Shown here: in pieces, positions 14,397 through 31,417 of the stretch
Numbering within the stretch: position 1 is the stretch's first letter
How the letters are laid out: every line of letters starts with the position of its first letter
Assembly: GCA_016180645.1 (NCBI GenBank)
Contig: JACPAV010000018.1
Span: 1-64,000, forward strand
Length of the DNA: 64,000 nucleotides
Direction: 5' to 3'
Source of the DNA: Nitrospirota bacterium
Lineage (GTDB): Bacteria > JACPQY01
The notes under the pieces: generated by a model
What the model was told of the DNA's origin: nothing
What the model saw: the letters and a program-made list of their open reading frames with translations, nothing else
Database searches by the model: none
Translations under genes and position numbers: made by a program

Positions 14397-17300
14397 GTGA
14401 CAGCCGAGTTGCCATCAGGGGGAGAACCCGATCCTCTTCGCGAAGGCCAAGTCCTGGCCGGCCCCCTGTTCAACGAGCCTATGCGGGTCGAAACGGTCCG
14501 GCCCAACGGCCCCGCCTCGTGGATAGCCGGGCTGGTCGGCGTTCAGTCCGAAAGGTTCCGAAGCGTCACGCTCACCGCCACCGACCTCAAGACTCTCACC
14601 ATCCTGGACTCCCGCGCCACCTACGATGGAAACGGCCAACTCCTCCGTCTCGGCCTCCAAGCCTACACCCTCGGGATCGCCTACGAATTCGATCCCTATT
14701 TCGGCCTCTCCATCTCACGGGTAGACCCCCTCCCCCATCAGCTTGAAGCGGTCTACGACTACCTCCTCAAACTCGCCCGCGTCCGCTTCCTCCTGGCCGA
14801 CGACGCCGGCGCGGGCAAGACCATCATGGCCGGCCTCCTCATTCGGGAACTCAAGCTCCGCGGACTCGCCGAGCGTATCCTGGTCGTCTGCCCCGCCAAC
14901 CTCGCCTTCCAATGGCAACGTGAACTCAAGGAGAAGTTCGACGAGAAATTCCTCGTCATGAAGGGAAGCGACATCCGCGACCAGTTCGGCGTCAATCAGT
15001 GGATGGAGCAGAAGCAGACGATCACGTCGCTCGACCTCGCGAAGCGGGAGGATATCCTGCCGGGACTCCGGCAGGTACACTGGGACGTCATCATCGTGGA
15101 CGAAGCCCATAGAATGTCCGCCGCCGATGAAACCCACAAAAGCCAGCGGTACCGATTGGGCGAACTCCTGCGAGATATCTCGGACCACCTGCTTCTCCTT
15201 ACGGCCACGCCGCACAAGGGAGACCCCATCAATTTCACCTTGTTCCTCCAGCTCCTGGATCCCGATACCTACGCCGATGTCCGATCGATCCGTGAGGCCA
15301 TGACCCGCCAGCGCGCGCCGTTCTACCTGCGACGAACCAAGGAGGCGATGGTCTACTTCCCGGAGCGACAACCGGATGGCACATGGACAGCCACGAAGAT
15401 CTTCAAGAAGCGGATTCCGAAGACGGTGGACTTCAACATCGACGGTCCCGAATTCGACCTCTACCGCCAGGTCACCCGATACGTGAAGGCCCAAAGCGTC
15501 AGGGCCGCCGCGGCGGGAGACGATCCCCGATCCCGCGCAGTCGGATTTCTTATGTCCCTCTACCAACGCCGCCTGGCCTCAAGCATGTACGCCCTCCGCC
15601 ACTCTCTGGAGAACCGAGCCACGCGCCTCGAAATGGCCCTGAAACGCGCCCAGGATCTCGCCCAAATCGCTCCACCTGAAATCCCCAGCCCGGAGGAATT
15701 GGAGGAAATGGAGGAAAGTGAACGCGAGCGCCTTGAAGAAATCCTTGAAGCCATCACCATCGCGGGCAACGCCGACCAGGTGCGAGAAGAAATCCGTGAG
15801 CTGTCCGACCTGGCCGGGAAGGCCAAGGCCGTTGAAGATGCCGGTTCTGAAGCCAAGCTCTCCAAGCTCAAGGCCACGCTTCAGGCGGAGGGGTTTTTCG
15901 ACCACCCCGATAGGCGGCTTCTCCTCTTTACGGAGTTCAAGGATACTTTGGACTACCTGGTCGGGAAGCTCAAGGACTGGGGCTTCCGCGTGGGATACAT
16001 CCACGGCAGCATGAAGGCCGGATCCAGAGATGATGAAGGAACACGCCTCCACTCGGAGCAACAGTTCAAGGAAGGGAAGATCCAAGTACTCGTGGCCACC
16101 GAAGCAGCAGGCGAAGGGATCAACCTCCAAGTTTGTAATATCCTTTTCAACTACGATATCCCGTGGAACCCGAACCGTCTCGAGCAGCGCATGGGCCGCA
16201 TCCACCGCTACGGCCAGAAGAAGGACTGCCTCATCTTCAATTTCGTGGCCTCGAACACCATCGAAGGGCGCGTCCTACAGCGCCTCCTCGAAAAGCTTCA
16301 GGAGATCCGAAACGCCCTCGATGACGACGCGGTCTTCAATGTCGTCGGCGAAGTCTTGCCGTCCGCTCACATTGAGCGGGTTCTTCGGGACTACTACTCA
16401 GGGAAGTTGGGAGATGCCGATCTCGAAGATCGGCTCCTCCGGGACGTGGATGAAAGCCGATTCCGCGCCATCTGCCGGAACGCTCTTGAAGGGCTGGCGT
16501 CGAAGAAATTGAACCTCGCCATGCTCATCGAGCGGCGCGCCCGGGCGCAGGAACGACGGGTTGTACCGGAGACCATCGCTCGGTTCGTCGCGGAGTCCGC
16601 CCCAATGGCGTCCTTGACCATCAAAGAAATTGCCTCTCTGCCCCATACCTTCGAGCCGGGCCGAACACCCCCCGCGCTCCGGCGGTTCGAGTCTCAATCG
16701 GATTGGAAACTGCCCGCCCTCGCAGGCAAGTATCCCCGCCTCTCAACCGAACGCGAGACCGCCGAGAAGCACAATCTCGAATGGGTCACCCCGGGGCATC
16801 CTCTCTTCGAGGCCCTGCGTCGTCATGCCTTGGATCAGGCGCTGCCGGAATTTTCCAGGGGAGCCTGTTTCCATTCCCTCCAGCACGACAAGCCCGCCCG
16901 GCTCGACTTCTATCGCGCGAAGGTAGTGGACGGTTTGGGGCATGCCATTCATGAGCGATTATTCGTCGTGGAGTATCCTGATGGCGGGGGGCCGCGATTG
17001 CTCAACGCAGCGGCCATTGGCGACTACACCCCGGCGCCGCCTCCAGACAAGCTGCCGTCTGTCGCTCTCGCGCCCGCTAACGCAGCCTGGCTGAACGAGA
17101 CGGCCCTCAAGCCCTTTCTGGACGAAGTGAAATCCGAGCGGCTGGCCGAGGTGGACCGAATCGCCAACCATGTCGAATTCTCTCTCACGGAACTCCTTCA
17201 CAAGGTGGATGAAGAAATCGGGAGGGCCGACGCCGATGTGGAGAGGAAAGCGCCCGGCGCGGAGGGTCGCCTCGCCCAAGCCGAGGCGCGCCACGCCGAC

Positions 17301-17855
17301 CTCATGGCTCGGCGCGAGAAGCGACGACAAGAACTCAATCGCGAACGGGCACTGTCCCTCCAAGGCGTCGAACGGATTGCCAGCGCGCTGGTTCTGCCCC
17401 ACCCCGAGCGCGATGCCGCCGACATCCGGCGACTGCGGCCTGATCCCCTAACGGAGGCCACGGCCATGCGTGTCGTCATCGAGCACGAGCAGTCCCAAGG
17501 ACGGCAGGTGGAGGATGTGCATGAAAAGAACCTGGGATACGACATCACCAGCATTGACACGAAATCGGGCCACCTCCGCCTTATCGAAGTCAAGGGCCTC
17601 GGCGGGTCCACGGGCACCGTCCTCCTTACTCCCAACGAGAAGCGCGTGGCCGAAGACCGCCGCGATTGCTACTGGCTGTACGTGGTTACAAACTGCAAAG
17701 CCACGCCGAAACTTGAAGATCCGATTCGCGATCCCGCTCGCCTGCCCTGGCATGAGGTGAAGAAGGTCGAGCATTATTGGCTCCAGGTGGATGCAATGAC
17801 CCAATCGATACAGCTGCGCGAGGATTCGCCTCCGTATGGAGGTGATCGCCCATGA
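14397..17855 (+). CDS. drmD: DrmD-type SNF2 helicase with C-terminal DUF3883
   Basis: 1152 residues from GTG 14397. The SNF2 motor has Walker A DDAGAGKTIMAG (about 136-147), V-D-E-A-H-R (about 235-240), L-L-T-A-T-P-H-K-G (about 264-272), and motif V/VI in TEAAGEGINLQ and QRMGRIHRYGQ. A coiled acidic segment follows at 425-480. The C-terminus carries DUF3883 (about 1035-1125: NLGYDITSIDTKSGHLRLIE, V-K-G), a fold related to restriction endonucleases, with E-V-K as part of a possible active site. This matches DrmD of class 1 DISARM, a DNA translocase in anti-phage restriction. It heads a run of genes each overlapping the next by ATGA (to 26806). Confidence 0.88.
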   Translation: MTAELPSGGEPDPLREGQVLAGPLFNEPMRVETVRPNGPASWIAGLVGVQSERFRSVTLTATDLKTLTILDSRATYDGNGQLLRLGLQAYTLGIAYEFDPYFGLSISRVDPLPHQLEAVYDYLLKLARVRFLLADDAGAGKTIMAGLLIRELKLRGLAERILVVCPANLAFQWQRELKEKFDEKFLVMKGSDIRDQFGVNQWMEQKQTITSLDLAKREDILPGLRQVHWDVIIVDEAHRMSAADETHKSQRYRLGELLRDISDHLLLLTATPHKGDPINFTLFLQLLDPDTYADVRSIREAMTRQRAPFYLRRTKEAMVYFPERQPDGTWTATKIFKKRIPKTVDFNIDGPEFDLYRQVTRYVKAQSVRAAAAGDDPRSRAVGFLMSLYQRRLASSMYALRHSLENRATRLEMALKRAQDLAQIAPPEIPSPEELEEMEESERERLEEILEAITIAGNADQVREEIRELSDLAGKAKAVEDAGSEAKLSKLKATLQAEGFFDHPDRRLLLFTEFKDTLDYLVGKLKDWGFRVGYIHGSMKAGSRDDEGTRLHSEQQFKEGKIQVLVATEAAGEGINLQVCNILFNYDIPWNPNRLEQRMGRIHRYGQKKDCLIFNFVASNTIEGRVLQRLLEKLQEIRNALDDDAVFNVVGEVLPSAHIERVLRDYYSGKLGDADLEDRLLRDVDESRFRAICRNALEGLASKKLNLAMLIERRARAQERRVVPETIARFVAESAPMASLTIKEIASLPHTFEPGRTPPALRRFESQSDWKLPALAGKYPRLSTERETAEKHNLEWVTPGHPLFEALRRHALDQALPEFSRGACFHSLQHDKPARLDFYRAKVVDGLGHAIHERLFVVEYPDGGGPRLLNAAAIGDYTPAPPPDKLPSVALAPANAAWLNETALKPFLDEVKSERLAEVDRIANHVEFSLTELLHKVDEEIGRADADVERKAPGAEGRLAQAEARHADLMARREKRRQELNRERALSLQGVERIASALVLPHPERDAADIRRLRPDPLTEATAMRVVIEHEQSQGRQVEDVHEKNLGYDITSIDTKSGHLRLIEVKGLGGSTGTVLLTPNEKRVAEDRRDCYWLYVVTNCKATPKLEDPIRDPARLPWHEVKKVEHYWLQVDAMTQSIQLREDSPPYGGDRP

Positions 17856-19351
17856 AGGCCGTCGCGATTCCCAAGAGCACAAAACAGCTTGCCGCGCTCG
17901 TCAAGCAGGGCGAAGGCACTACACTGGAATTCAAGCGTTCGACAGGCGAACTGAAGGAGGGCATGCAGACGCTGTGCGCCTTCCTGAACGTATCCGGCGG
18001 CACGGTGCTCTTCGGGGTTCGGCCCGAAGGCACGATTGAGGGACAGGATGTTTCCGACAAGACGCTCCGCGACATCGCACAGGCCGCAGCTCGTTTCGAG
18101 CCTCCCGCTCATGTTGCCATTGAGCGCATCAAGATCAAAGTGGGCCGCATGGTTGTGATCGTCACGGCCGAGAGCGGTCGGGATGTCCGTCCCTTCACCT
18201 ATGAAGGCCATCCCTACGAGCGCCTGGGCAGCACGACGCGCCGGATGCCGCAGGCGAAGTACGAGCGTCTGCTCGTCGATCGCGGCCACGCGAAGCGTCG
18301 CTGGGAGAACCTCCCCGCCGAAGGCCTGGCGCTGAAGGACTTGGACCGCAAAGAGATCCTGCGCACGCGCGAGCTGGCCATTCAGCAGAACCGGATTTCG
18401 CCGGACACCCGCCGGGACGTCGGCGAAATCCTCGACCGGTTGGGATTGCGGATTGACAGTGTTCTCACGCAGGCCGCACTGATACTTTACGGCAAGAGAT
18501 TCCTGCCGGATTACCCTCAATGCCTCTTGAAAATGGGCCGGTTCCGGGGAACGGAGATTACCGGCGAGATCGTGGACAACCGGCAGGAATACATGAACGC
18601 CTTTGCCATGGTACGCGAGGGAATGGAATTCCTGAAGCGAACCATGCCCCTGGGTGCGCGCTTCCCCGAGGGACAGATTTTTCGTGAAGATCGTTTCCCC
18701 ATCCCCTTGGACGCTCTCCGGGAAATCCTCCTCAACGCCGTCATGCACCGCGACTACTCCCACTACTCCGGCCACGTCGCCATTGTGGTCTTTGACGACC
18801 GGGTCGAGATCAGAAGCTACGGTCGCCTGCCCAATGGCGTGACGCTGAAGCAGCTTTCGGGGAAACATATATCAAAGCCGACCAATCCCCTGATCGCCGG
18901 GGCCTTTCACCGCACGGGCGCGGTGGAGGTTTGGGGCCAGGGAACCAACCGCGTGATCGCGGCCTGCAAACGTCACGGAGCCGCCCCTCCGAAATTCGAG
19001 GAATTGCAGGGGTTCCTGATCGTAACGTTCAGAGCACAGATGGTCGCCGGGGGCAAGACGGAGGTTGCCGGGGCCCAGTCAGGAGCCCAGTGGAGGGCCC
19101 AGTCAGGGGCCCAGTCGGTTCGGGTTCTGAACGTCTTGTCACGGAGTGCCTTGTCCGCTCGTGCGCTGGCAGAAGCCCTTGGGCTGCGAAGCAAGACCGG
19201 CGCATTGAAGCGGACTCTCAACGAATTGCTCGCTGAAGGATTGATCGAGTACACGTTGCCTGAAAAGCCCAGCAGCCGCCTGCAAAAGTACCGTCTTACT
19301 CGGGCTGGGGAGAAGGCGCAGAAAACGCACAGCGGAAAGGATGGGAAATGA
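17852..19351 (+). CDS. Schlafen AlbA_2 domain / ATP-binding protein with winged helix
   Basis: 499 residues. The AlbA_2 domain is at about 15-140 (GEGTTLEFKRS, LCAFLNVSGGTVLFGV), followed by a GHKL-like ATP-binding segment (LREILLNAVMHRDYS, about 290-305; A-F-H-R-T-G-A-V-E-V-W-G-Q-G-T-N-R, about 353-370). A winged helix lies at the C-terminus (SALSARALAEALGLRSKTGA). Between them, about 406-425, is a short repeat of G-A-Q-S. Such proteins accompany restriction and DISARM-like loci and may act as regulators or nucleic-acid-binding effectors. The start overlaps the helicase stop and the end overlaps rmuC, so all are co-translated. Confidence 0.85.
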   Translation: MKAVAIPKSTKQLAALVKQGEGTTLEFKRSTGELKEGMQTLCAFLNVSGGTVLFGVRPEGTIEGQDVSDKTLRDIAQAAARFEPPAHVAIERIKIKVGRMVVIVTAESGRDVRPFTYEGHPYERLGSTTRRMPQAKYERLLVDRGHAKRRWENLPAEGLALKDLDRKEILRTRELAIQQNRISPDTRRDVGEILDRLGLRIDSVLTQAALILYGKRFLPDYPQCLLKMGRFRGTEITGEIVDNRQEYMNAFAMVREGMEFLKRTMPLGARFPEGQIFREDRFPIPLDALREILLNAVMHRDYSHYSGHVAIVVFDDRVEIRSYGRLPNGVTLKQLSGKHISKPTNPLIAGAFHRTGAVEVWGQGTNRVIAACKRHGAAPPKFEELQGFLIVTFRAQMVAGGKTEVAGAQSGAQWRAQSGAQSVRVLNVLSRSALSARALAEALGLRSKTGALKRTLNELLAEGLIEYTLPEKPSSRLQKYRLTRAGEKAQKTHSGKDGK

Positions 19352-20832
19352 TCTACGCCCTCTGCGTATTGGGTGGTTTGCTAATCGGCGGCCTTGTGGC
19401 TTGGCTGCTCGCGTCCGCACGCGTTGCAAAATCCCTGACCGCCAAAATTGAGGAGCTTGCGAGGCAGGCGAACACGGCCGAGGGTCGGGCCTCTGGACTG
19501 GAAGGGACCATCGCAGAACTGCGTGCGCAGAATCAGAAGGCTTCCGACGACTTCACGAAGCTCCGAGAGCAGTTGGCCGGCGAGAACAGCGCAAGGGTGA
19601 AGGCGGAAACCCAACTGGCGGAAACCGTCCAACGGCTTGAAGAAGAGAAGAAACTTCTTGAGGATGCGAAGGTCAAGCTCACGGACACCTTCAAGGTGCT
19701 CGCCGGGGACACGCTCAACAACAACACGACGGCGTTCCTGAAACTGGCGAAGGAGACACTCGATAAGGTTCTCACGGACGCAAAGGGAGACCTCGGCAAG
19801 CGCCAGGAGGCCATTCAAGGAATGGTCAAGCCCTTGTCGGAATCCATCACGAAATTCGAGGAGCATGTCCGCACGATTGAGAAGAACAGGCAGGAGGCGT
19901 ATTCGGGGCTGACTGAGCACCTGAAGGGCCTCTCTGCAAGCCAGCAGCAACTTCAGAAGGAAACCGCGAACTTGGTCACGGCCCTGCGAAAGCCGCAGGT
20001 GCGAGGCCGTTGGGGAGAGATGACGCTGCGCCGGGTGGTGGAATTGGCGGGAATGTCCGAGCACTGCGACTTCGCCGAACAGGTCACCGCCAATACCGAC
20101 CTGCCTGCCGCGGCGCGGACCTCCGCGGCGCAGGCAGGGGAAGGCAGGCAGCGCCCCGATCTCATCGTTCGCCTGCCCGCCCAGCGCGAAATCGTCGTGG
20201 ACGCGAAGGTATCTCTGGAAGCCTATTTGGACGCAGTCGCTGCGGACTCGGAAGAAACGCGGAAAGTTGCCATGGCGCGGCACGCGGCGCAGGTCCGCAG
20301 TCACATGAACGCTCTTGCCAACAAGCAATACTGGGCGCAGTTCACCCAAGCCCCTGAATTCGTCGTGATGTTCATTCCCGGCGAGTCGTTTTTCGGTGCT
20401 GCGGTGGACGCGGATCACAGCCTTATCGAAGATGGCCTGGAACAACGCGTGGTGTTGGCGACCCCCACGACCCTGATAGCCCTCCTTCGTGCCGTGGCTT
20501 ATGGCTGGCGGCAGGAACAGGTCGCCAAGAACGCTCAGGAGATCAGCGAACTCGGAAAGCAGCTCTACGAACGCATGAGAATCTTTGCCGAGCACATCGG
20601 CGAAGTCGGCAAAGGGCTTGAGAAGGCCAATGCCTCTTACAACAGCGCCGTAGGGTCGATGGAGGCGCGGGTCCTTCCGGCCGCGCGGCGATTCAAGGAT
20701 CTTGGGGCCGCGCCCGGTGCCGAAGTTCCTCTGGTTCAACCCATCGAAACGACGCCGCGCGTACTCACGGCACCTGAACTTTCGGAAGACCAGTCTGAAC
20801 AGCAGGACATTGCTGGGGAGGATGGGAAATGA
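19348..20832 (+). CDS. rmuC: RmuC-family DNA recombination protein
   Basis: 494 residues: an N-terminal membrane helix (ALCVLGGLLIGGLVAWLL), a long coiled coil (about 30-215), then the conserved RmuC nuclease-like domain (RKPQVRGRWGEMTLRRVVEL, RPDLIVRLP, VVDAKVSLEAYLDAV, ARHAAQVRSHMNAL, E-F-V-V-M-F-I-P-G-E). RmuC limits recombination at inverted repeats. Here it is embedded in a defence operon and probably works on invading DNA with the SNF2 helicase. Residues about 251-263 are extra relative to usual RmuC and are encoded by a GC-rich palindrome at 20100-20138. Confidence 0.88.
   Translation: MIYALCVLGGLLIGGLVAWLLASARVAKSLTAKIEELARQANTAEGRASGLEGTIAELRAQNQKASDDFTKLREQLAGENSARVKAETQLAETVQRLEEEKKLLEDAKVKLTDTFKVLAGDTLNNNTTAFLKLAKETLDKVLTDAKGDLGKRQEAIQGMVKPLSESITKFEEHVRTIEKNRQEAYSGLTEHLKGLSASQQQLQKETANLVTALRKPQVRGRWGEMTLRRVVELAGMSEHCDFAEQVTANTDLPAAARTSAAQAGEGRQRPDLIVRLPAQREIVVDAKVSLEAYLDAVAADSEETRKVAMARHAAQVRSHMNALANKQYWAQFTQAPEFVVMFIPGESFFGAAVDADHSLIEDGLEQRVVLATPTTLIALLRAVAYGWRQEQVAKNAQEISELGKQLYERMRIFAEHIGEVGKGLEKANASYNSAVGSMEARVLPAARRFKDLGAAPGAEVPLVQPIETTPRVLTAPELSEDQSEQQDIAGEDGK
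20100..20138. repeat. REP-like GC palindrome inside rmuC
   Basis: CCTGCCTGC (20100-20108) faces GCAGGCAGG (20130-20138), with nested CGCGG/CCGCG. It is 39 bp, exactly 13 codons, and encodes the Ala-rich D-L-P-A-A-A-R-T-S insertion before the conserved R-P-D-L-I-V strand, so the frame is kept. Confidence 0.65.
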
Positions 20833-23792
20833 CACAGCAAATATCCCCTTATCAAGATCTCTTGGAGACATTGGACCAGCTTCGGATACGGACCGCTCGG
20901 TTTCGCCGAGTGGCGCTTCACCTGCACTCTCCGGACAGTTACGACTGGAACCGTACGGGGGACAAGACGCTCAATGACCGCGAAAGGCTAATCGCTGACG
21001 ACGGTGATAGCGAGTTCATCGGCGCGTTGAAAAAGCATCTCGACCTAGTCGTCATAACCGACCACATGAGATGCACCTACGCCAGCCGGGTATCCCAGCT
21101 CAGTCGAGGTGAAAAGAACTTCCTGGTCTTGCCTGGAATGGAAGTGAACTTCCAGCCAGAGGCGGCCATCAGTTGCTTTCGCGTGCATCTTCTCATCGTC
21201 CTTCCCGAGGGAGCAACCGTGGAGAAGTTCAGTCGAATTTTCGCAGGGGTGAAAGACATTCCAGACGATGAGAAAAGAGAAGGTCAGGAGGAGGTCCAAA
21301 ACCTGCGCCTGTCGGACTTTATTAAGCATGTTCACGACGAAGGCGGCTTGTGCGTCGCGGCACATGTCAATTCCCAGCAAGGCATCCGTCACCTTTTCCG
21401 ACAAACCGGCGCGGAAATCATCAAACAATTCACCTCCGATCCAGCCGCCCAGGAAGAGCAGGAAAAAGATCTCTCTACGGAACTCAAGAAATACCTGTTT
21501 TCCGTCGAGTTCGATGCTCTTGAGATCGCGAAAGCGGCGGACAAAAGGCACTACCGCTGGTCCATGCCCGAGAAGGGGTATGAGGTTGCAATCCCCGTGA
21601 CGATGCGATTTGACGCACACTGCATAGAAGACTTTTCACGGACTGACTTGGTTACTTGGATCAAGATGACCACTCTTGGCCTTAAGGGGCTCCGCGACGC
21701 ATTGAAAATTCCAGAGACGCGAATCCGATTCGCAACTGACCTGCCCATGCCACCCAGTCCCCGACTCCTTGGAATTGAAATCTTGGGTGACAGCAGCTCC
21801 CTATTTGAGAAAGAACGCATCGCCTTTGCCGAAAACCTCAATTGCCTCATCGGACCAAGAGGATCGGGAAAATCCACTATCGTCGAGGCGCTGCGCTACG
21901 TGTTCGGCTATAATCGCACACTTTCAGAACTCGACTCGACGAACAAGCTCTCCGAACGCATCCGTGAGATGCAAGAAGCAAATCTATCCGGATGTCTGAT
22001 CCGTGTCGTCTATCAAACCCGGTCCGGCGAGAAGCGGGTTCTTGAAGCAACATTCGACCCACAGGAGGATTACGTCACCAAGGTATTCGATGCCGATGGC
22101 GAGCCACTTTCCGTTGCTGATGTTGAATCGAGCGGCGATTATCCCGTGCGACTCTTCGGATGGAGCGAAATCGAGACGCTCGGCCGGGACACCGCACGGC
22201 AGCGGGATTTATTGGACCGTCTTATCGTGGAATTGCCCCCGGTCAAGCAGGAACGTGACGAACTGACCCAGCAGTTCCAGGCTAACCGAAAAGAAATTGA
22301 GAAGACTATAGCCGATCTCAAGGCCATCTATCATCGCAACAATGGTGTGATTCGTCGCTTTTCCGAATATAAGGCTGCCTTCGAGAAGATCAACACGGAG
22401 GACGTTAAGAAGCATTTCGGCGATCTCGACCTCGCCCAGATGAAAGGGCAAGCGTTGGAGCTCATCAAGAAGAACGTCGATTCTTTTAGCTCCAAGGTAA
22501 GCGCACTTGACGCTACTTCCCTACGTGAGGGATTGTCTGAACTTCTCGAATCCGCACCACAGGAACTCCGTGACTGGTGGATGAACAATGCCACGCCGAT
22601 ACTGCACATTGTAGAATCCGAGGCAGATGTGCAGAAAACACTTTCGTCCGCGACCCATGCGTTGACGGGACTGGCCGGACTGATCGTTCAGAATATCGCG
22701 GTTGCCAAAGCTGAAATCGAGGCGATCCAGTTGAGAATAAGGGGGTCATTGGCAGACGACTCATCCATGCAAAAGATCGCGGATCTTCGCTCGAACGCCG
22801 AGCGTCGATTACGCGAGGCATCCGCGGTCCGCGACGAGTACCTGAAAACATGGAAACGCTTGCAAACCTCGTTGACATTGCGGGAAAACTCCGCGGGCAA
22901 GATTGTAGAAATCCACGAACGGATTGCAGAAATCCGAGCTGCCAGTAATCTGAAGATAGAGACGACGCTCAATCAATACCTTGCCGGCCACATGAAGGTG
23001 TCGCTTAGTTTCCGTGCTGGGTGTGATACACAGGCGTTTGCTGATTCGGTCGTCAAGAAAAAGGTCGCCGCATCGTTCGCCACGCAGTACAAGAACCGAC
23101 GAATTCCAGACATTCTCGCCGCCCATTTCAATCCCTTCACCCTAGTGCGTGCGCTTCTTGGCGGCGATCCCCACGCCTTTGAGGGAAAGCAGTTGCCAGA
23201 CGATCCGTCAGCCCAGATCACCGCCACTGAAGCTCAGAAGGCGGTGGATGCATGGAAACCGTGGGGGAAGGATGAAGCCGCTCAAGTCGAAGCCCTGAAT
23301 GAGGACGGCGAACGTCTCACGAATCTGTTGAAGCTGCAGGAGGTCGAATGGGACGACGAGGAGAGCATTCTCCTCAATGACAGACCTGTTGGAGAGTTAT
23401 CGCCCGGGCAGCGGTCCAGTGCCATGTTACCGCTCATTGCATTGGCGGAGTCGACTCCGCTCGTCATCGACCAACCCGAAGACAATCTCGACAACCGCCT
23501 TATTGGCCAGATTTTGGCGGACATCCTCGCGGCGCTGAAGGAAAGGCGGCAAATCATCGTCTGCACACATAATCCGAATATCGTTGTTTCCGGTGATGCT
23601 GAGCAAGTGATCGTTCTGAATGCGATTAGCGACCGCAAGGCGACTGTGGAGAAACACGGTTCAATTGACAACGACGACATCGTGCAGTCGGTCATTGACA
23701 TCATGGAAGGTGGGCGCGATGCCTTCCGTGTTCGACAGCATCGCTATGGTATGGATCTCCCACCCGCCCTTGCAGTGGTGGGTGGCGCATGA
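20829..23792 (+). CDS. PHP-domain plus SMC-like ATPase (TrlF-like)
   Basis: 987 residues. The N-terminal PHP phosphoesterase domain has H-L-H-S (about 31-34), V-I-T-D-H (about 75-79), L-P-G-M-E-V (about 100-105) and A-A-H-V-N-S. An ABC/SMC-type ATPase follows, with Walker A GPRGSGKSTIVEAL (about 342-355), a coiled-coil insert (about 470-720), signature L-S-P-G-Q-R-S (about 856-862), Walker B P-L-V-I-D-Q-P-E-D-N-L-D (about 877-888) and a His switch in C-T-H-N-P. The family (TrlF-like PHP-ATPases) is frequent in defence islands. It probably couples ATP-driven DNA sensing to hydrolysis of a phosphoester. ATGA overlaps on both sides. Confidence 0.85.
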   Translation: MTQQISPYQDLLETLDQLRIRTARFRRVALHLHSPDSYDWNRTGDKTLNDRERLIADDGDSEFIGALKKHLDLVVITDHMRCTYASRVSQLSRGEKNFLVLPGMEVNFQPEAAISCFRVHLLIVLPEGATVEKFSRIFAGVKDIPDDEKREGQEEVQNLRLSDFIKHVHDEGGLCVAAHVNSQQGIRHLFRQTGAEIIKQFTSDPAAQEEQEKDLSTELKKYLFSVEFDALEIAKAADKRHYRWSMPEKGYEVAIPVTMRFDAHCIEDFSRTDLVTWIKMTTLGLKGLRDALKIPETRIRFATDLPMPPSPRLLGIEILGDSSSLFEKERIAFAENLNCLIGPRGSGKSTIVEALRYVFGYNRTLSELDSTNKLSERIREMQEANLSGCLIRVVYQTRSGEKRVLEATFDPQEDYVTKVFDADGEPLSVADVESSGDYPVRLFGWSEIETLGRDTARQRDLLDRLIVELPPVKQERDELTQQFQANRKEIEKTIADLKAIYHRNNGVIRRFSEYKAAFEKINTEDVKKHFGDLDLAQMKGQALELIKKNVDSFSSKVSALDATSLREGLSELLESAPQELRDWWMNNATPILHIVESEADVQKTLSSATHALTGLAGLIVQNIAVAKAEIEAIQLRIRGSLADDSSMQKIADLRSNAERRLREASAVRDEYLKTWKRLQTSLTLRENSAGKIVEIHERIAEIRAASNLKIETTLNQYLAGHMKVSLSFRAGCDTQAFADSVVKKKVAASFATQYKNRRIPDILAAHFNPFTLVRALLGGDPHAFEGKQLPDDPSAQITATEAQKAVDAWKPWGKDEAAQVEALNEDGERLTNLLKLQEVEWDDEESILLNDRPVGELSPGQRSSAMLPLIALAESTPLVIDQPEDNLDNRLIGQILADILAALKERRQIIVCTHNPNIVVSGDAEQVIVLNAISDRKATVEKHGSIDNDDIVQSVIDIMEGGRDAFRVRQHRYGMDLPPALAVVGGA

Positions 23793-26700
23793 TCCCCAAG
23801 GAATGTAAACGCCTGGCGGAGGTGGATTTTCCGATTGCGGTGGTGTCAAAGCACGCCGCGCGGGAGAAATCGATCCGGCATGGACACCCGAGCACACTGC
23901 ACCTCTGGTGGGCGCGGCGACCACTCGCCTCGTGCCGGGCGATGCTGCTTGGGCTTCTGCTCCCTGATCCGTGCGACGAGCACTGCCCCAAGGAATTCAA
24001 GGATCGGGCACGGGCACTCCTGCCCCACACGGTCGGGCCTACGGATGAAGACCTGCGCAAAGGGCTTCTGAAATTCATCGGGGATTTCTCAAACTGGGAT
24101 CTGGCCAATAATCCTGCGTATGTTGAGGCAGGGCGCGGCCTCGTGAAGGCCGCACACGGGGAGGAAGCGCCTCTCGTCGTAGATCCATTCGCCGGCGGCG
24201 GATCGATCCCCCTTGAGGCCCTGCGGCTGGGCTGCGAGGCGTTTGCCTCGGACCTCAACCCCGTGGCCTGCCTCATCCTCAAGGTCATGCTGGAGGACAT
24301 TCCACGCCACGGCCCGAAGCTTGCCGAGGAACTCCGGCGCGTGGGCGGTGAGATCAAGAAAGCGGCAGCAGAAGAACTGGCTGAGTTCTATCCTCACGAT
24401 CCCGATGGTGCCACGCCCATCGCCTACCTCTGGGCGCGAACGGTGCGCTGCGAAGCTCCGAACTGCGGCGCGGAGATTCCGCTCATGCGCTCATTCTGGC
24501 TCTGCAAGAAAGCGAACCGGCGACGCGCGCTTCGGCCAAAAGTTGTAAAGCGCCGCGGCGAACAACGGAGAATCGATTTCGAGATCTTTGAGCCGAAAAA
24601 GGAGAGCGATGTGGGAGCCGGGACGGTCACCCGAGCGAAGGCGACGTGTCTATGCTGCAATGCTGTTCTTCCACCGGAACGGGTGCGGGCGCAACTCGCG
24701 GCCCAGCGCGGCGGCGCGGATGTTATTTTCGATGGCAAAGGGAACCGCAGCGGCGGTGCGGTCATGGCGGCGGTAGTGACGCTGCATCCGGGCAAGCCAG
24801 GGCGCAACTACCGCCTGTCCACAGTGCGCGAGTATCAGGCCGTCTGGAGGGCACAGAAGCGGCTCAAGTCGATCCTCGGCGAGTGGGAACGTGGCGGCAA
24901 GAAGGGGCTTTGCCCGGTGCCGGATGAAGTGATCTCGCTCAACGAGATTCGCAGGATTAGTGTTCCGATCTACGGAATGAGCAGTTGGGGCGACCTGCTC
25001 ACTTCGCGGCAAAAGATCGCGTTGGTGACTCTCGCTCGGTTTGCTCGCGAGCGACTAATTGAGGGTGAGGCTGCACTATCGACTGCTCTTGCGCTGGGGG
25101 TGGATCGAGCAGCGGATCAGCTGTCTAGCTTGGTGCGGTGGTTAGAAACCATCGAGGCCATCGCGAGCACTTTCGGGCGTCAGGCCATCGGAATGGTGTG
25201 GGACTTCTGTGAGACAATTCCCATCGGCGATCACTCGTCCAACTTCGGAGCCGCGCTCGAATGGATAGCGAAGGTCATTCAACACTGGCCAGCGTCGAGT
25301 ACCGGTCAGGTTCAGGTTGCAGACGCGGCCAATCACCCACTTCCCGACCAGACAACTTCGATTTGGTTCACCGATCCACCCTACTATGACGCCGTACCCT
25401 ACGCGCACTTGTCAGACTACTTCTACGTGTGGCTGCGGCGAATCTTTCCGATCACCGGCGGGACGCACTTTGGTTCGGAGGTGTCGCCGAAGGATGCCGA
25501 GATCGTTGTAGACAGACCGCACACTCGGAGTACTTCCAAGAAGAATGCGACTTCCTACGAAGCTGGGATGGCCACCGCCTTCAGAGAAGGGCGACGTATC
25601 CTTTCTCAAGAAGGTGTCGGCTCGGTAGTGTTTGCTCATAAGACAACCGAAGGTTGGGAAGCCTTGCTGTCCGGGATGATTCGTGGTGGATGGACGATCA
25701 CGGGCTCGTGGCCCATTGCGACAGAAAGGACTGCGCGGGTCAATGCACAGGAGACAGCTTCCCTCGCCACCAGCGTCCACCTCGTCTGCCGCCCGCGGCC
25801 AAGAGATGCCGGCGTGGGCGACTGGGGCGAAGTCCTACGGGAACTGCCCAAGCGCGTCGGAGATTGGATGGAGCGCCTACAGGGCGAGGGCATTCGCGGT
25901 GCGGACTTGGTCTTTGCCTGTATCGGCCCGGCATTGGAAATTTACAGCCGATACTCGAAGGTTGTGGATGCGGAGGAACGCGAGATTCCGCTTGGGGGCA
26001 ATCCTGAGGCAAAAGAACCTCACCTACGCGGCTACCTTGCCTACGTATGGGAAATCGTCGGTCGGATAGCTCTTGAGCACGTGCTCGGCACCGCGGAAGC
26101 GAAGGCCAGAAACGGCGCGGCCGGAGCTTTGGAAGAGGACGCGAGGCTGACGGCGCTGTTTCTGTGGACGTTGCAGAGTACCCAACAGGAAGGCAAAAGT
26201 GAAAAGGGAAAAGGCAAAATTGAGGAGATGGAAGATGAGGCGCCAGAAGAGATAGATGAAGATGAAGACATTCCGCGAGGGAAGACGTCGGGATACAGCC
26301 TCGTTTTTGATGTGGTCCGGCGGTTTGCGCAGCCCTTGGGGATCAAGCTCCCGGAATGGGAAGACCGCGTCATCGAAACGAAAAAAGGCGTGGTGCGACT
26401 CTTCGCGGTGTCCGAGCGAGCAAAACAACTCTTCGGCTCGGATGGCGCCCGCGCCGTGGCCGATCAAATCGAGAAAGACCCGGCCTCGGCGAGCCAATTG
26501 GTCCTCTTCGGCGAACGGCAGGAGGAACTTCCGCTTAGGAAGAAGGGACGCACCAGGAAGTCGGGTGGTCAGGTATCCGATGAGGCCATGAAGCCCCAGC
26601 GTGAAGCGACCACGCTCGACCGCGTCCACGCGGCTATGCTTCTTCAGGCCGGCGGCCGAACCAACGCCCTCCGCGCCCTCCTCAAGGCCGAGCAAGACCG

Positions 26701-26806
26701 TGGCCCAGACTTCGAGCGCCTCGCCAATTCCCTCTCCGCCCTCTATCCCCGGTACAGCGAAGAAAAACGCCTCCTGGACGCAATGCTCCTCGCCGTGCCA
26801 AGATAG
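23789..26806 (+). CDS. drmMI: DUF1156 adenine-specific DNA methylase (DrmMI-type)
   Basis: 1005 residues. The N-terminal DUF1156 (REKSIRHGHPSTLHLWWARR) is followed by the SAM-binding motif VVDPFAGGGSIPLEALRLG (about 127-145), Cys pairs CEAPNC and CLCC that probably bind zinc, and the catalytic T-D-P-P-Y-Y-D (about 527-533) of N6-adenine methylases. This is the COG1743 class used as the modification arm in class 1 DISARM and in DUF499-linked systems. The linker near residues 801-830 (EGKSEKGKGKIEEMEDEAPE) is encoded by an A-rich repeat unlike the flanking codon use. The start overlaps the PHP-ATPase stop. Confidence 0.9.
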   Translation: MIPKECKRLAEVDFPIAVVSKHAAREKSIRHGHPSTLHLWWARRPLASCRAMLLGLLLPDPCDEHCPKEFKDRARALLPHTVGPTDEDLRKGLLKFIGDFSNWDLANNPAYVEAGRGLVKAAHGEEAPLVVDPFAGGGSIPLEALRLGCEAFASDLNPVACLILKVMLEDIPRHGPKLAEELRRVGGEIKKAAAEELAEFYPHDPDGATPIAYLWARTVRCEAPNCGAEIPLMRSFWLCKKANRRRALRPKVVKRRGEQRRIDFEIFEPKKESDVGAGTVTRAKATCLCCNAVLPPERVRAQLAAQRGGADVIFDGKGNRSGGAVMAAVVTLHPGKPGRNYRLSTVREYQAVWRAQKRLKSILGEWERGGKKGLCPVPDEVISLNEIRRISVPIYGMSSWGDLLTSRQKIALVTLARFARERLIEGEAALSTALALGVDRAADQLSSLVRWLETIEAIASTFGRQAIGMVWDFCETIPIGDHSSNFGAALEWIAKVIQHWPASSTGQVQVADAANHPLPDQTTSIWFTDPPYYDAVPYAHLSDYFYVWLRRIFPITGGTHFGSEVSPKDAEIVVDRPHTRSTSKKNATSYEAGMATAFREGRRILSQEGVGSVVFAHKTTEGWEALLSGMIRGGWTITGSWPIATERTARVNAQETASLATSVHLVCRPRPRDAGVGDWGEVLRELPKRVGDWMERLQGEGIRGADLVFACIGPALEIYSRYSKVVDAEEREIPLGGNPEAKEPHLRGYLAYVWEIVGRIALEHVLGTAEAKARNGAAGALEEDARLTALFLWTLQSTQQEGKSEKGKGKIEEMEDEAPEEIDEDEDIPRGKTSGYSLVFDVVRRFAQPLGIKLPEWEDRVIETKKGVVRLFAVSERAKQLFGSDGARAVADQIEKDPASASQLVLFGERQEELPLRKKGRTRKSGGQVSDEAMKPQREATTLDRVHAAMLLQAGGRTNALRALLKAEQDRGPDFERLANSLSALYPRYSEEKRLLDAMLLAVPR
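26191..26231. repeat. A-rich microrepeat in methylase linker
   Basis: The words GGCAAAA, GTGAAAA and GGGAAAA are repeated over about 40 bp, far more A-rich than the surrounding gene. It stays in frame and encodes a Lys/Glu/Gly linker. Confidence 0.5.
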
Positions 26807-26817
26807 CGCCATCACTC

Positions 26818-27246
26818 ATGCTGACCCAGGCGGAGGCCGATCTTCTGATTGCGATGAAGAAAACTTTCGCAGATCCCAAACCCCTGCGGCTCACACCGGG
26901 ACGTAAGCGAGTGTATGAACTGCTCGGCGATGACAAGAAGGAACAATTCCTACTCGACATATGGCGGGCAAGCCTGAAGTTATCGAAAGTGTCCTTCAAC
27001 ACCCGGGGCAGGAAGGTGGTCGTGCTGGTACGAGTTGATCTGGACGGGGCACCGCACACGAACCCAGATGAAACCAAGATTGGGGGAAGCCACATACACT
27101 TGTACCGTGAGGGCTACGATGACAAGTGGGCATACCCTCTCGACCAATCTGAATTCAGGAAACCGTCAAGCGTTGTCCAAACCCTCCTCGATTTTCTCGC
27201 CTATTGCAGAATTGGCGGATATCCTCCCGTCCAGGACGAGAACTGA
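26818..27246 (+). CDS. DUF6978-like protein
   Basis: 142 residues from ATG 26818. Features are MLTQAEADLLIAMKK at the start, F-L-L-D-I-W-R-A, then K-V-V-V-L-V-R-V-D-L-D-G-A-P-H-T-N-P-D-E and H-I-H-L-Y-R-E-G with D-K-W-A-Y-P-L. This pattern fits the DUF6978 family, usually encoded next to DUF1828 proteins in defence islands. It overlaps the DUF1828 gene (TGATG). No catalytic function known. The pair is probably a self-contained toxin-antitoxin-like cassette placed between methylase and ATPase. Confidence 0.65.
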   Translation: MLTQAEADLLIAMKKTFADPKPLRLTPGRKRVYELLGDDKKEQFLLDIWRASLKLSKVSFNTRGRKVVVLVRVDLDGAPHTNPDETKIGGSHIHLYREGYDDKWAYPLDQSEFRKPSSVVQTLLDFLAYCRIGGYPPVQDEN

Positions 27247-28013
27247 TGAACCGTCTGGAATGTGAACAATTGGTGGAGTCATACGTCGAGTGGATCAAGA
27301 AAGGACTCTCGGTCGCCCAACTTCAAGACGCCTGCGAATTGACCACACCGTTCCTGGACAGACACAATGACCACCTGCAAATCTACGCCCAGAAGAAGGA
27401 TGGCAAGATTCTGATCACCGACGACGGATATATCCTTGCGGACTTGGAAACGAGCGGGATGGACCTGCTTACTCCGAAGCGACGAGCCGTCCTCGAGACG
27501 ATGTTGAAGGGATACGGCGTCAGGATGGAGGAGGATCGTTTGATCGTGGATGCCACACCCCGCAATCTTGGGCAACGCATTCATTCGCTGGTTCAAGCGA
27601 TGCTTTCAATCAATGACATGTTTGTGATGGCCCAGCCTCGGGTCTCCGGTTTTTTCTGGGAGGACGTAAGAGGCTTTCTGGATGAGAACAGGATCCGATA
27701 TAGCCCTCGCGTAAAAATATCTGGCAGAAGCGGATTCGATCAGGCAATCGATTTTCTAATCCCAAAATCCCAGAGCCGGCCTGAACGACTGATACAAGCG
27801 ATCAACACGCCAAGCAAGAACACTATCGGTTTCTATCTCTTTTCCCTCTCGGACACTCGTGAGGCAAGGGTGGACGCTTCCGAAGCGTATGCATTTCTGA
27901 ATGATCAAGATCGCAAGGTGGGTGGCGAGATCATGGATGCACTGCAAGTCTATGAGGTGAAACCCGTGATTTGGAGTGGACGCCAGCAGGCTGTTCATGC
28001 ATTGGCCGAATAG
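27246..28013 (+). CDS. DUF1828/DUF1829 protein
   Basis: 255 residues from ATG 27246. The N-terminal DUF1828 region (Y-A-Q-K-K-D-G-K-I-L-I-T-D-D-G-Y, about 45-65) is typical, with L-T-P-K-R-R and the amphipathic R-N-L-G-Q-R-I-H-S-L-V-Q-A. The C-terminal DUF1829 part (ISGRSGFDQAIDFLIPKSQS ... VKPVIWSGR) resembles restriction-nuclease-like folds. It is translationally coupled to the DUF6978 gene. It may be a nuclease effector, but direct evidence is lacking. Confidence 0.7.
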   Translation: MNRLECEQLVESYVEWIKKGLSVAQLQDACELTTPFLDRHNDHLQIYAQKKDGKILITDDGYILADLETSGMDLLTPKRRAVLETMLKGYGVRMEEDRLIVDATPRNLGQRIHSLVQAMLSINDMFVMAQPRVSGFFWEDVRGFLDENRIRYSPRVKISGRSGFDQAIDFLIPKSQSRPERLIQAINTPSKNTIGFYLFSLSDTREARVDASEAYAFLNDQDRKVGGEIMDALQVYEVKPVIWSGRQQAVHALAE

Positions 28014-28022
28014 GGCGAGAGC

Positions 28023-28682
28023 GTGGAATACTGGTACAAGGTCGTAGCGCCGGAGAAGGAGGTTCGCGAGGGGCAGTCGTTTGACCCGGAGCAAGACATG
28101 ACAAAGGTTTTCATCGCCGGTTCCAGGCATGTGACGAGACTCGACACAGAGGTGATGGCCAGAATTGACCGAATGATGGAGCAGAACTTCTCAATCTTGA
28201 TCGGCGATGCCAACGGCGCCGACAAGGCGGCACAAAAGCACCTCCATGCAAAGGGCCACAGGAACGTCCAGGTGTTCTGCGTCGAAGGTGAGTGCAGGAA
28301 CAATCTCGGCGGCTGGCCGGTCAGATCCGTGCGTTCCTCCTCCGTCAGGAAGGACTTCGCCCACTTCGCCAGCAAGGACGCCGTCATGGCCAATGAGGCT
28401 ACGGTGGGGTTCATGTTGTGGGATGGCAAGAGCACAGGGACTTTGGCGAACGTTTCGCGGCTCATCGGCCAAGGCAAATCCGTCCTGGTGTACCTTGCTC
28501 CAACCCGCTCGTTTCTCGAATTGAAGAATGAAGCGGACTGGCAGAAGCTCCTTTCTGATTGCCCTGCACCGGTGAGAAATCGTTTCTTGACGAAGGTGAG
28601 CGGTAGCAAGAAGCGCCCGCCGCGCCCCCACCCTCTCAGCCTCTTTCCGCAAGCCCCTCGATGGAACCCTGGTACAAGGTAG
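28023..28682 (+). CDS. SLOG-family nucleotide-binding protein with DUF499-derived N-terminus
   Basis: 219 residues if started at GTG 28023. The SLOG domain begins at ATG 28098 (MTKVFIAGSRHVTRLD), with G-D-A-N-G-A-D-K-A-A (about 64-73) and M-A-N-E-A-T-V-G-F-M-L-W-D-G-K-S-x-G-T. Codons 1-24 instead copy the first codons of the next gene: 15 of 24 residues and 52 of 72 bases agree with 28661 onward (W-Y-K-V, E-V-R-E-G, S-F-x-P). The gene therefore sits inside an old DUF499 5' end. It overlaps DUF499 by 22 bp. Its C-terminus is Pro/Arg-rich. It is probably an accessory nucleotide sensor. Confidence 0.75.
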   Translation: MEYWYKVVAPEKEVREGQSFDPEQDMTKVFIAGSRHVTRLDTEVMARIDRMMEQNFSILIGDANGADKAAQKHLHAKGHRNVQVFCVEGECRNNLGGWPVRSVRSSSVRKDFAHFASKDAVMANEATVGFMLWDGKSTGTLANVSRLIGQGKSVLVYLAPTRSFLELKNEADWQKLLSDCPAPVRNRFLTKVSGSKKRPPRPHPLSLFPQAPRWNPGTR

Positions 28683-31417
28683 CCACGCCTCGTAGGGAGG
28701 TACGGGAGGGACGGTCGTTCAACCCGGACGAATTCGCCATCGCGCTGGAGCAGGTGGTGGCGGGAAATGCGCCAGAGGACTACCAAGACCCGACAAAGTT
28801 CTTCGCCCGAACGTGTTTCACGCGCGCCCTGCGGGAATACTCCGGGTTGGTCTTGCGACGGCTCCAAGGCAAGACGGAAAGCACGGCGCCTGTCCTCACG
28901 TTGGTCACGCAGTTCGGCGGCGGGAAAACTCACACGTTGACAACCCTTTACCACATCGCCAAGAACGGCAAGGCACTCCACAAGAACAAGGATACTTCCG
29001 ACCTTCTATCCCATGCCGAGCTACCCATCGTCGAGAACGTCCGGGTCGCCGTCTTCGTCGGCAACGCCTGGGACCCGCGCGAAGGCCGAGAAAATCCATG
29101 GATCGACATTGCGCGCCAGCTTGCGGGCGAGAAGGGAGTTGCCGAACTGGGCCAGGCGGCCAAGACCACCCCGCCGGGCACGGAGGCTCTGCATCGCGTC
29201 TTTCAGGCCGCAAACGGTCCTATTCTGATCCTGATGGACGAGGTGTTGAATTTCTTCAATCGTCATCGGCCGCTGGTGGAGCCAACTTACGCGTTTTTCG
29301 ACAATCTGAACCGGGCCATGACCGGTACGACCCACGGCGCCATGGTGATCAGCCTGCCCCGCAGCCAGGTGGAAATGACGGACTGGGATACGCAGTGGCA
29401 GGAGCGGATCACCAAGGTCGTGAGGCGAGTGGCCAAGGAGCTCATCGCGAACGACGAGACGGAAATCAGCGAAGTCGTCCGCAGGAGGCTTTTCGAGGAC
29501 CTCGGCAGCGAGAAGGCCCGAAAGAACGTGGCCAAGACGTTTGCCGACTGGTGTTTTGAGAGGCGAGCCCAACTTCCACCCGAATGGACGGCAGTGGATA
29601 CGAGCGCGACGGACGCCAAATCGCGCGAGTTTCTTCAGAAGAGGTTCGAGGACTGCTACCCCTTCCATCCCGCCACCCTCTCGGTTTTCCAGCGCAAATG
29701 GCAAGCCCTTCAGCAGTATCAGCAAACCCGAGGCACCCTGGCCATGTTCGCCCAATGGATCTCCATCGCTGCCCAAGAGAGCTTCAAGAAGGCCCGGACG
29801 GAACCGCTCATCACGCTAGGCTCCGCGCCCCTTGAGGTTCCTGAGTTCCGGAGCGTGGTGCTGGGGCAGATCGGAGAGGCCCGGCTCGCCACGGCCATCG
29901 ATTCCGACCTGGCTGGAGCTCATTCGCATGCCAAGGCCCTCGATGCGGATACAAAGGGCCCTCTCCGGGACATACACAGGCGAGTCGGCGCAGCGATCCT
30001 GTTCGAGTCTTCCGGTGGGCATGCGCAGAAGGTGGCCCACCTTCCCGAGCTCCGCTTTGCGCTAGGGGAACCCAGTATCGATACAACCTCCGTCGATAGC
30101 GCCGCCTTCGCCATGGAAGCCAGTGGCTACTACGTCCGGAAGGTCGGAACCGACGGCTTCCAGATCCACCACCAAGCAACCCTCAAGAAAGTGGTGAGCG
30201 ATCGGCGAGCGTCGCTGGACCAGGAATCAGAGGTCAAACCCACGATGAGGGATCTCGTGCGCGGGGAATTCAGGAGGGGCGCCGGCATCCCCGTTATCGA
30301 TTTCCCCAACGATGGGGCGGAGATTCAGGATTCGCCGAAGCTCACAATCATTACAATGGATCCTGAACTGGAATGGATTGGGAAGGGGTCCTTACGGGTG
30401 CAGGTGGCCGAGTGGACAAAGCAGCGGGGGAAGTCGCCTCGGCTTTATCCCGGGTCGCTCGTGTGGTGTTTCAAGAAACCCGGCCGGGAGCTGAGAGACG
30501 ATGTAGAGAATTGGCTTGCGTGGAAGCGAGTTGCACAGGAGCTGGCGAACGGAACCCTTGGGAGCGACTTTGATAAGTCTGATCGCTCGGAGGTGCAAGC
30601 GAGAGTGAAGATTGCCGAGGATACCGCCCGGGAGGAGGTCTGGGGCGGGTATCGGTACGTGGTGCTCTCCGATCCCGCCGAGAAGGACGGCCTCAAGGTG
30701 ATCGATTTGGGAGCCGGGCACGCCAGCGCGTCGGAAACGCTTTGCGGGCGGGTTATCGCGGCACTCAAGTCACAGGCACTCCTCAATGAATCGGTGGGCG
30801 CGGGCTACCTTGATCGGCACTGGCCTCCGGCGCTGAAGAAAACCGGAGGGTGGCCGCTCGCGAGCCTTCGGCAAAGCTTTCTGAACGGTGCCCTCACCCG
30901 CCTAGTGGACCCGGATCTGGTGCTAAGGGCCAAAGTTGTGGAATTCGTCGGCCGGGCAGAGTTCGGCTTGGCTTCCGGGCAGAAGAAGGACGGTTCGTTC
31001 GAGCGGATCTGGTTCGAGGAAATGCTGCCCGTGGATGAGGTCAATTTCGACGAAGGCGTTTTTCTCCTGACGAGAGCCAAGGCCAAGGAACTCAAGGGAG
31101 GCGGCATTGTAGTTACGTCAACGCCCACGGGTCCGACCGCCCTGACGACGCCACCACCAACGGTGGGCCCAACGCCTCATCCCCCGGTGGAGCCAGTAGC
31201 GGGCACCCGGACCATCCGGCTGGTCGGCGACATCCCTCCCGAACTCTGGAACCGACTGGGCACGAAGATTCTCCCGAAACTCCGCTCAGGCGACAACCTC
31301 AAGGTGGGCGTCGAATTCACCGTGACCGTCAAGTCCGGCGTTGCCCCTTCCCTGGAATCGGACCTCCGCCAAATCCTTGCCGACCTCGGCCTCACCAACC
31401 GCATTCGCATCGAGTAG
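28661..31417 (+). CDS. DUF499 AAA-type ATPase (COG1483)
   Basis: 918 residues. It begins MEPWYKVATPRREVREG and has Walker A T-Q-F-G-G-G-K-T-H-T (about 83-92) and Walker B I-L-I-L-M-D-E-V (about 188-195). A large helical region and a Pro/Thr linker follow (about 805-830: TTPPPTVGPTPHPP), then a C-terminal 80-residue domain (TRTIRLVGDIPPELWNRLG). DUF499 ATPases co-occur with DUF1156 methylases and SNF2 helicases in predicted phage-defence loci. It closes the operon that begins at 14397. The detached C-terminal domain may contact the methylase or DNA. Confidence 0.88.
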   Translation: MEPWYKVATPRREVREGRSFNPDEFAIALEQVVAGNAPEDYQDPTKFFARTCFTRALREYSGLVLRRLQGKTESTAPVLTLVTQFGGGKTHTLTTLYHIAKNGKALHKNKDTSDLLSHAELPIVENVRVAVFVGNAWDPREGRENPWIDIARQLAGEKGVAELGQAAKTTPPGTEALHRVFQAANGPILILMDEVLNFFNRHRPLVEPTYAFFDNLNRAMTGTTHGAMVISLPRSQVEMTDWDTQWQERITKVVRRVAKELIANDETEISEVVRRRLFEDLGSEKARKNVAKTFADWCFERRAQLPPEWTAVDTSATDAKSREFLQKRFEDCYPFHPATLSVFQRKWQALQQYQQTRGTLAMFAQWISIAAQESFKKARTEPLITLGSAPLEVPEFRSVVLGQIGEARLATAIDSDLAGAHSHAKALDADTKGPLRDIHRRVGAAILFESSGGHAQKVAHLPELRFALGEPSIDTTSVDSAAFAMEASGYYVRKVGTDGFQIHHQATLKKVVSDRRASLDQESEVKPTMRDLVRGEFRRGAGIPVIDFPNDGAEIQDSPKLTIITMDPELEWIGKGSLRVQVAEWTKQRGKSPRLYPGSLVWCFKKPGRELRDDVENWLAWKRVAQELANGTLGSDFDKSDRSEVQARVKIAEDTAREEVWGGYRYVVLSDPAEKDGLKVIDLGAGHASASETLCGRVIAALKSQALLNESVGAGYLDRHWPPALKKTGGWPLASLRQSFLNGALTRLVDPDLVLRAKVVEFVGRAEFGLASGQKKDGSFERIWFEEMLPVDEVNFDEGVFLLTRAKAKELKGGGIVVTSTPTGPTALTTPPPTVGPTPHPPVEPVAGTRTIRLVGDIPPELWNRLGTKILPKLRSGDNLKVGVEFTVTVKSGVAPSLESDLRQILADLGLTNRIRIE

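Follow-up and report, generated by a model that had tools for sequence, protein, structure and literature searches.

A putative mobile Hma (Type-1 BREX-Related) anti-phage operon with probable backup effectors in a Nitrospirota bacterium

Introduction

The window analysed in this study is a stretch of 64,000 nucleotides from a Nitrospirota bacterium (contig JACPAV010000018.1). On its plus strand lies an operon of nine genes (14397-31417), in which genes for a helicase, a DNA methyltransferase and an ATPase are interleaved with genes of other families. The question raised by this locus is to which defence system its core belongs and what the interleaved genes could contribute. An earlier note, made from the DNA sequence alone, described the locus as a DISARM helicase and methylase combined with a DUF499 ATPase and inserted accessories, and it also suggested that the operon may be a richer relative of the catalogued Hma type.

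The definition of Hma as an operon of a helicase, a methylase and an ATPase goes back to PADLOC in 2021 (Payne et al.; PMC8565338). In the main text of Rakesh and Krishnan (2026), this trio is grouped with BREX among the DUF499-centred BREX-Related systems (PMC12839542). Type 1 of these systems is described there as having a helicase with a C-terminal PD-(D/E)XK nuclease and a DUF1156 N6-methylase, without PglZ or DUF3780. According to the same text, auxiliary and backup effectors, Schlafen included, are known in BREX and BREX-Related systems.

Results

All nine genes placed in the operon by the earlier note were found at the coordinates first given and on the same strand. Its domain assignments were also upheld by Pfam, namely SNF2/Helicase_C with NOV_C (DUF3883), AlbA_2 with HATPase_c_4, RmuC, an SMC/OLD-type ATPase, DUF1156 and DUF499. 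For the genes that it had left unnamed, Pfam gave DUF6978, DUF1828 with DUF1829, and a weak match to DprA. The operon begins with hmaA (14397-17855), which encodes an SNF2/SF2 helicase with a C-terminal DUF3883/NOV_C (PD-(D/E)XK-like) nuclease domain. The interval between hmaA and hmaB (gap 1) holds a Schlafen-like gene (17852-19351; AlbA_2, HATPase_c_4 and wHTH), an RmuC-family gene (19348-20832; hydrophobic N-terminus, coiled coil and RmuC domain) and a TrlF-family gene (20829-23792; N-terminal PHP-like metal site and OLD/SMC-type ABC ATPase). The gene hmaB (23789-26806) encodes a DUF1156 DNA methyltransferase of the adenine type (DPPY), and hmaC (28661-31417) encodes a DUF499 AAA+ ATPase. 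Between these two genes (gap 2) lie a DUF6978 gene (26818-27246; PADLOC candidate PDC-M24A), a DUF1828+DUF1829 gene (27246-28013; PDC-M24B) and, as gene 8 of the operon, a DprA/SLOG-like gene (28023-28682).

The coupling by ATGA overlaps that had been reported through position 26806 was confirmed: four 4-nt overlaps join the genes from hmaA to hmaB (HmaA/Schlafen, 17852-17855; Schlafen/RmuC, 19348-19351; RmuC/TrlF, 20829-20832; TrlF/HmaB, 23789-23792). The DUF6978 gene follows hmaB after 11 nt and overlaps the DUF1828 gene by 1 nt (TGATG), for which the start ATG at 27246, lying in this overlap, was preferred over TTG at 27204. The 3' end of gene 8 overlaps hmaC by 22 nt. A weak terminator-like hairpin 3' of hmaC (31489-31504, plus strand) is a consensus match only, in a region with fewer such matches than expected by chance. 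The GC content was 60-61% in the core, Schlafen-like and RmuC genes, 53.8% in the TrlF and DUF6978 genes and 52% in the DUF1828 gene. Values of 52-54% in the latter three genes, compared with 61% in the core, indicate that the operon was assembled as a mosaic.

When PADLOC models were run, a check that the earlier note had proposed, those of HmaA, HmaB and HmaC were the best matches for the three core genes, and its lead to Hma proved right. The helicase matched HmaA at 573.6 bits, the best of 70 families, and DrmD at 402.6 bits; Pfam found Helicase_C, SNF2 and, at residues 1020-1106, NOV_C. HmaB was matched at 396 bits by PADLOC and by Pfam DUF1156, and HmaC at a modest 283 bits and by Pfam DUF499. 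The HmaA motifs GKT, DEAH and GYD..IEVKG are intact and 89-100% conserved save for one variable position. HmaB contains DPFAGGG, TDPPYYD and zinc-finger cysteines, and HmaC contains Walker motifs, with a Walker A (TQFGGGKTH) that is 100% conserved. Among about 60 relatives, on which all these conservation values are based, Walker A, DEAH, the DUF3883 motif GYD..EVK, DPPY and the zinc-finger cysteines were strongly conserved.

The locus thus shows these features of Type 1 BREX-Related systems: an SNF2 helicase carrying at its C-terminus the predicted PD-(D/E)XK nuclease domain (NOV_C/DUF3883), a DUF1156 methylase with DPPY and a zinc finger, and a DUF499 ATPase. Pfam found neither PglZ/iSTAND of Type 3 nor the DUF3780/HKD helicase of Type 2 among the nine genes, and BREX PglZ and BrxC (DUF6079) were likewise absent from them by Pfam and PADLOC. 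Judged by these matches, the core is of a known kind, Hma, alias Type-1 BREX-Related, and the nine-gene operon is a rich variant of it. The published Hma has three genes, whereas six more occupy the A-B and B-C gaps here. As a separate observation, residues 1 to about 45 of HmaC (28661-28795; WYKVxTPRxEVREGRSFNPDEFAIALEQVV) are near-invariant across phyla and fall outside the Pfam DUF499 match (168-359), which makes this stretch a candidate docking segment.

The assignment to DISARM did not hold. DrmA, DrmB and DrmC were indeed missing from the operon genes by Pfam and PADLOC, as had been noted before. A class 1 DISARM relative that had lost these three genes would account for the helicase, which is of the SNF2/DUF3883 type, is related to DrmD and is matched by DrmD models at 403 bits. 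However, the HmaA model was ahead by 171 bits, the NCBI DrmD model NF038317 scored 365.8 bits against a cut-off of 610, and no DISARM methylase family was among the PADLOC matches of the operon methylase. The DUF499 ATPase is not a DISARM component, and the same Hma trio was found in all complete relatives. A DISARM origin is accordingly hardly credible. A DrmA match of the helicase reflected shared helicase sequence only. The NCBI models for the anti-phage system of DUF499, DUF1156 and a PLD helicase (NF042962/63/64) also missed their cut-offs, with 100.9/1200, 188/1000 and 174/1100 bits, probably because they describe the PLD-helicase type.

Relatives were collected with HmaB as 80 genome loci from many phyla (designated L below). 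The order A-B-C on one strand was found in 57/57 related loci in which all three genes were complete. With this operon itself counted, gap 1 had a median length of 1962 nt and exceeded 900 nt in 49/63 loci, and gap 2 had a median of 975 nt and exceeded 900 nt in 39/73; a gap shorter than 150 nt was present in ten loci for gap 1 and in eleven for gap 2. The cargo of both gaps changes from locus to locus and is dominated by defence families. A set of 100 gap-1 proteins included 15 AlbA_2, 7 UvrD, 6 Fic and 4 GmrSD proteins, and 93 gap-2 proteins included 21 OLD-type ATPases, 10 DUF4276, 10 PIN and 4 HEPN proteins. PADLOC matches of the cargo were mostly to defence ATPases and Gabija-like helicases, and Schlafen-like genes were present in 16 of the 80 loci. 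The reading of the accessories as insertions therefore stands, but not as a trait peculiar to this locus, since in most surveyed Hma loci these two gaps are likewise occupied by variable cargo.

Two further cargo families were seen among the relatives. The commonest gap-2 family of which the tested member lacked a Pfam or PADLOC match (L012:8920-9891 with 15 relatives, about 312 aa) has 16 members, which lie in gap 2 every time. In gap 1, a protein of about 720 aa occurs in L038 (5664-7841) and L059 (7837-9990), and its L038 member had no Pfam or PADLOC match.

Neither RmuC and TrlF nor DprA and SLOG occur in the main text of PMC12839542, and relative to that main text cargo of these types is new. 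With the Type-1 BREX-Related systems as presented there, the operon shares the core trio and the presence of auxiliary or backup effectors, Schlafen among them; it differs in the RmuC, TrlF and DprA/SLOG cargo and in holding three cargo genes in gap 1 at once.

The RmuC-family protein of the operon matched Pfam RmuC at 9.9e-105, and its best PADLOC match was RTasRmuC. It was 83%, 68% and 64% identical to RmuC proteins in the Hma loci L002, L079 and L005, respectively, and only 24% identical to the second, ordinary RmuC of the same genome. The HmaB proteins of this locus and L002 were only 65% identical, whereas the RmuC proteins were 83% identical. In L002 and L005, RmuC precedes a large ATPase gene that abuts hmaB, which is the place of TrlF in this operon; by eye and by the gap-1 family counts, this ATPase is of the OLD/TOPRIM type. 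In a small neighbourhood sample of 395 Desulfobacterota genomes, three of six RmuC proteins that were at least 62% identical to that of the operon lay within about 10 kb of Hma/BR genes or an HmaB remnant, compared with 0/12 of those that were 45-56% identical (Fisher p=0.025, small sample). These comparisons place the operon RmuC in a lineage that travels with Hma. ShdA of the Shield system is an RmuC-domain protein and an established anti-phage DNase, and ShdA RmuC domains degrade DNA in vitro (PMC10270631). The operon protein was likened to ShdA by its domain and hydrophobic N-terminus, which suggest a membrane-anchored RmuC domain; Shield is a separate system, however, and no Shield partners were recognised in the operon.

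The Schlafen-like protein carries an E..E.K motif. It was 88% identical to the product of the gene directly 3' of hmaA in L038 and 74-79% identical to sequences in L004, L008 and L057. In L008 and L057, fragments of the same lineage persist after hmaA. In L004 (5488-8816), the Hma-resident Schlafen gene is split at about codon 99, and an ORF of about 450 aa lies on the opposite strand between its parts.

The assignment of the fourth gene to TrlF was supported by NCBIfam NF045780 (377.3 bits against a cut-off of 350, residues 22-974), and the motifs HxH, TDH, Walker A/B and the signature are present. The protein shares the PHP-like N-terminus and the OLD/SMC-type ATPase of the TrlF family and of Ppl, which PADLOC matched at E=1.3e-38. 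Ppl is known as a single-gene system, whereas this gene is located inside an Hma operon and its product misses the cut-off of the Ppl model NF042955 (192 against 1000 bits). Searches of PDB sequences gave nothing informative for TrlF or the SLOG-like protein and two uninformative matches for the Schlafen-like protein.

Three phyla contributed 80 TrlF loci, and in 39 of these a Schlafen-like gene lies directly downstream of TrlF on the same strand. Among 41 TrlF-downstream genes that were checked, AlbA_2 was present in 40 and HATPase_c_4 in 41. A BR core was near in 7/80 TrlF loci, six of which carry the TrlF-Schlafen pair. Unlike these pairs, the operon has the order Schlafen-RmuC-TrlF, with RmuC upstream of TrlF and no Schlafen gene downstream. 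The history of TrlF differs from that of the Schlafen-like gene. The nearest TrlF (L196, 57% identity) sits after two large genes that, judged by eye only, resemble genes for a helicase of the HKD type and a methylase of the restriction type. The arrangement of TrlF followed by an AlbA_2/HATPase_c_4 Schlafen gene (L116, L117, L126, L148, L183 and 34 other loci) is a recurring two-gene unit that lies mostly outside Hma, and no description of this pairing, nor any paper that names TrlF and Schlafen together, was found in the literature searched. In L125 and L159, the Hma/BR core is divergent, with HmaB at about 400 bits, and the pair occupies the B-C gap and not the A-B gap.

The pair of DUF6978 and DUF1828 genes also occurs in gap 2 of L011, and a DUF1828 gene in that of L033; the DUF1828 homologues in these two loci are 63-70% identical to that of the operon. 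A structure model of the DUF1828/1829 protein was unusable (pLDDT 47). In the viral contigs searched, no relatives of the SLOG-like protein, the DUF1828 protein or HmaC were found.

Gene 8 gave weak matches to Pfam DNA_processg_A (4e-4) and PADLOC ShosA (7e-4). As read from a GTG start at 28023, it begins with about 23 codons that duplicate the beginning of hmaC: a repeat search found a 67-nt stretch (28024-28090, plus strand), corresponding to the first ~23 codons of hmaC, with 75% nucleotide identity to hmaC 28662-28728 (alignment 52/72 nt). An HMM of the HmaC leader matched the leader of gene 8 at E=2e-8, its sole non-HmaC occurrence in the loci surveyed to that point. A docking tag common to the cargo was considered for this leader and rejected, since the leader HMM found no other non-HmaC carrier in those loci. 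The alignments identify the leader as a putative recombination relic at the hmaC start. Alignment with plasmid homologues suggests that gene 8 itself likely starts 3' of the relic, with an ATG at 28098. These homologues are 38-42% identical and lie directly 3' of ComF/PRTase genes, and the same arrangement behind a PRTase is known for PRTase-DprA toxin-antitoxin pairs (PMC9122126, PMC4670107). Gene 8 resembles the DprA/SLOG-like antitoxin of such pairs (ShosTA, RqlHI), but by Pfam no PRTase partner is present among the nine genes, and so the simplest reading of gene 8 is an orphan antitoxin or sensor. In a weak structure model (pLDDT 60), matches to the LOG/SLOG fold were suggestive only, with none at E<=0.001.

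The surroundings of the operon were also studied. Exact copies of a 37-nt att-like core, which represents the 5' half of tRNA-Gly(ccc), lie at 2560, 36616 and 46932. The first copy (2560-2596) is attL-like and the second (36616-36652) forms the right end of a first island of 34,056 bp (2560-36615), which holds the operon; a second island (36616-46931, 10.3 kb) follows in tandem with its own integrase. An integrase gene lies just inside each of the first two copies, at 2598-4058 (minus strand, tyrosine integrase, Pfam PF00589 3.8e-14) and at 38276-39526. Considering these exact repeats and the integrases, it may be concluded that the operon is located in a putative integrative island. Also present in the first island are a gene upstream of the operon for a protein with a cyclic-phosphate-processing receiver domain (5512-6390; PF20274) and a DUF3987 (primase/helicase-like) gene (33684-35003, minus strand), possibly for replication of the element. 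The earlier note, sound as to gene content, had omitted this tRNA-Gly island, the relic of the hmaC start, the DprA/SLOG-like character of gene 8 and the HmaA, HmaB and HmaC models as best matches.

Discussion

Taken together, the findings are best explained by a mobile Hma (Type-1 BREX-Related) operon that acts against phages and carries additional effectors, likely backups, an explanation to which a probability of about 0.75 is given. Judged from the gene families, its likely function is a restriction-modification-like defence with backup effectors. HmaB would methylate self DNA, HmaC would assemble a scanning and restriction complex, and HmaA would translocate on unmodified DNA and cut it through its DUF3883 nuclease. 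The cargo of the two gaps would be co-expressed with this core. Gap 1 would supply an RNase of the Schlafen type, an RmuC DNase anchored in the membrane like that of Shield, and TrlF, a PHP-ATPase related to Ppl; most likely, these proteins would serve as backup effectors when the core has been overwhelmed or blocked by a phage. In gap 2, the candidate pair PDC-M24 would be joined by an orphan antitoxin of the PRTase-DprA type, which was apparently left behind by a recombination that is also the source of the second hmaC start.

Co-transcription is no proof that cargo and core cooperate, and a shared promoter may be all that joins them. Two other explanations, which differ in how closely the genes are tied, were weighed. 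The first five genes are coupled without exception by 4-nt overlaps, which would imply co-regulated stoichiometry, and the Schlafen and RmuC lineages keep to Hma (88% in L038 and 83% in L002, respectively). Both would be expected of one integrated nine-component machine, in which phage detection by the core would switch on Schlafen, RmuC and TrlF directly, for instance via HmaC, as in multi-subunit BREX. However, the cargo varies freely among relatives, and in about 10 loci the gaps are all but empty, which indicates that the core works without cargo. TrlF with Schlafen is found mostly outside Hma, and the low-GC TrlF gene looks recently added. Such a machine is thus unlikely.

A passive defence island, in which independent systems (Hma, Schlafen, RmuC, TrlF and PDC-M24) share one transcription unit at an insertion-tolerant site, is somewhat less improbable but still doubtful. 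Mosaic GC content, the relic of the hmaC start, the mobility of the island, the remnants of Schlafen genes behind HmaA in L008 and L057 and the interrupted copy in L004 agree with it. On the other hand, insertions keep their strand, reading-frame coupling and position between core genes across phyla, and both the RmuC lineage and the Schlafen lineage show specialisation to Hma. The usual occurrence of TrlF without Hma was counted against the preferred reading, an Hma operon loaded with backups, as were the modest HmaC score and the missed cut-offs of the NCBI DUF499 and DUF1156 models.

More tentatively, Hma operons in general could be regarded as weapon racks, with a fixed A-B-C core and two conserved gaps for swappable effector cassettes, some of which (the dedicated RmuC and Schlafen lineages) would be adapted to and triggered by the Hma complex; TrlF and the AlbA_2/HATPase Schlafen would form an undescribed, pluggable two-gene defence unit. 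This generalisation is possible rather than probable.

Because the core is already known, the interest of the locus lies in its cargo. A restriction-modification-like core in fixed order appears as a carrier of exchangeable effectors across many phyla, RmuC and TrlF are named as cargo that the 2026 survey does not mention in its main text, and TrlF-Schlafen emerges as a gene pair that recurs. Should a blocked core trigger the cargo, the operon would offer a compact model in which to test layered immunity, since its layers can be deleted one by one.
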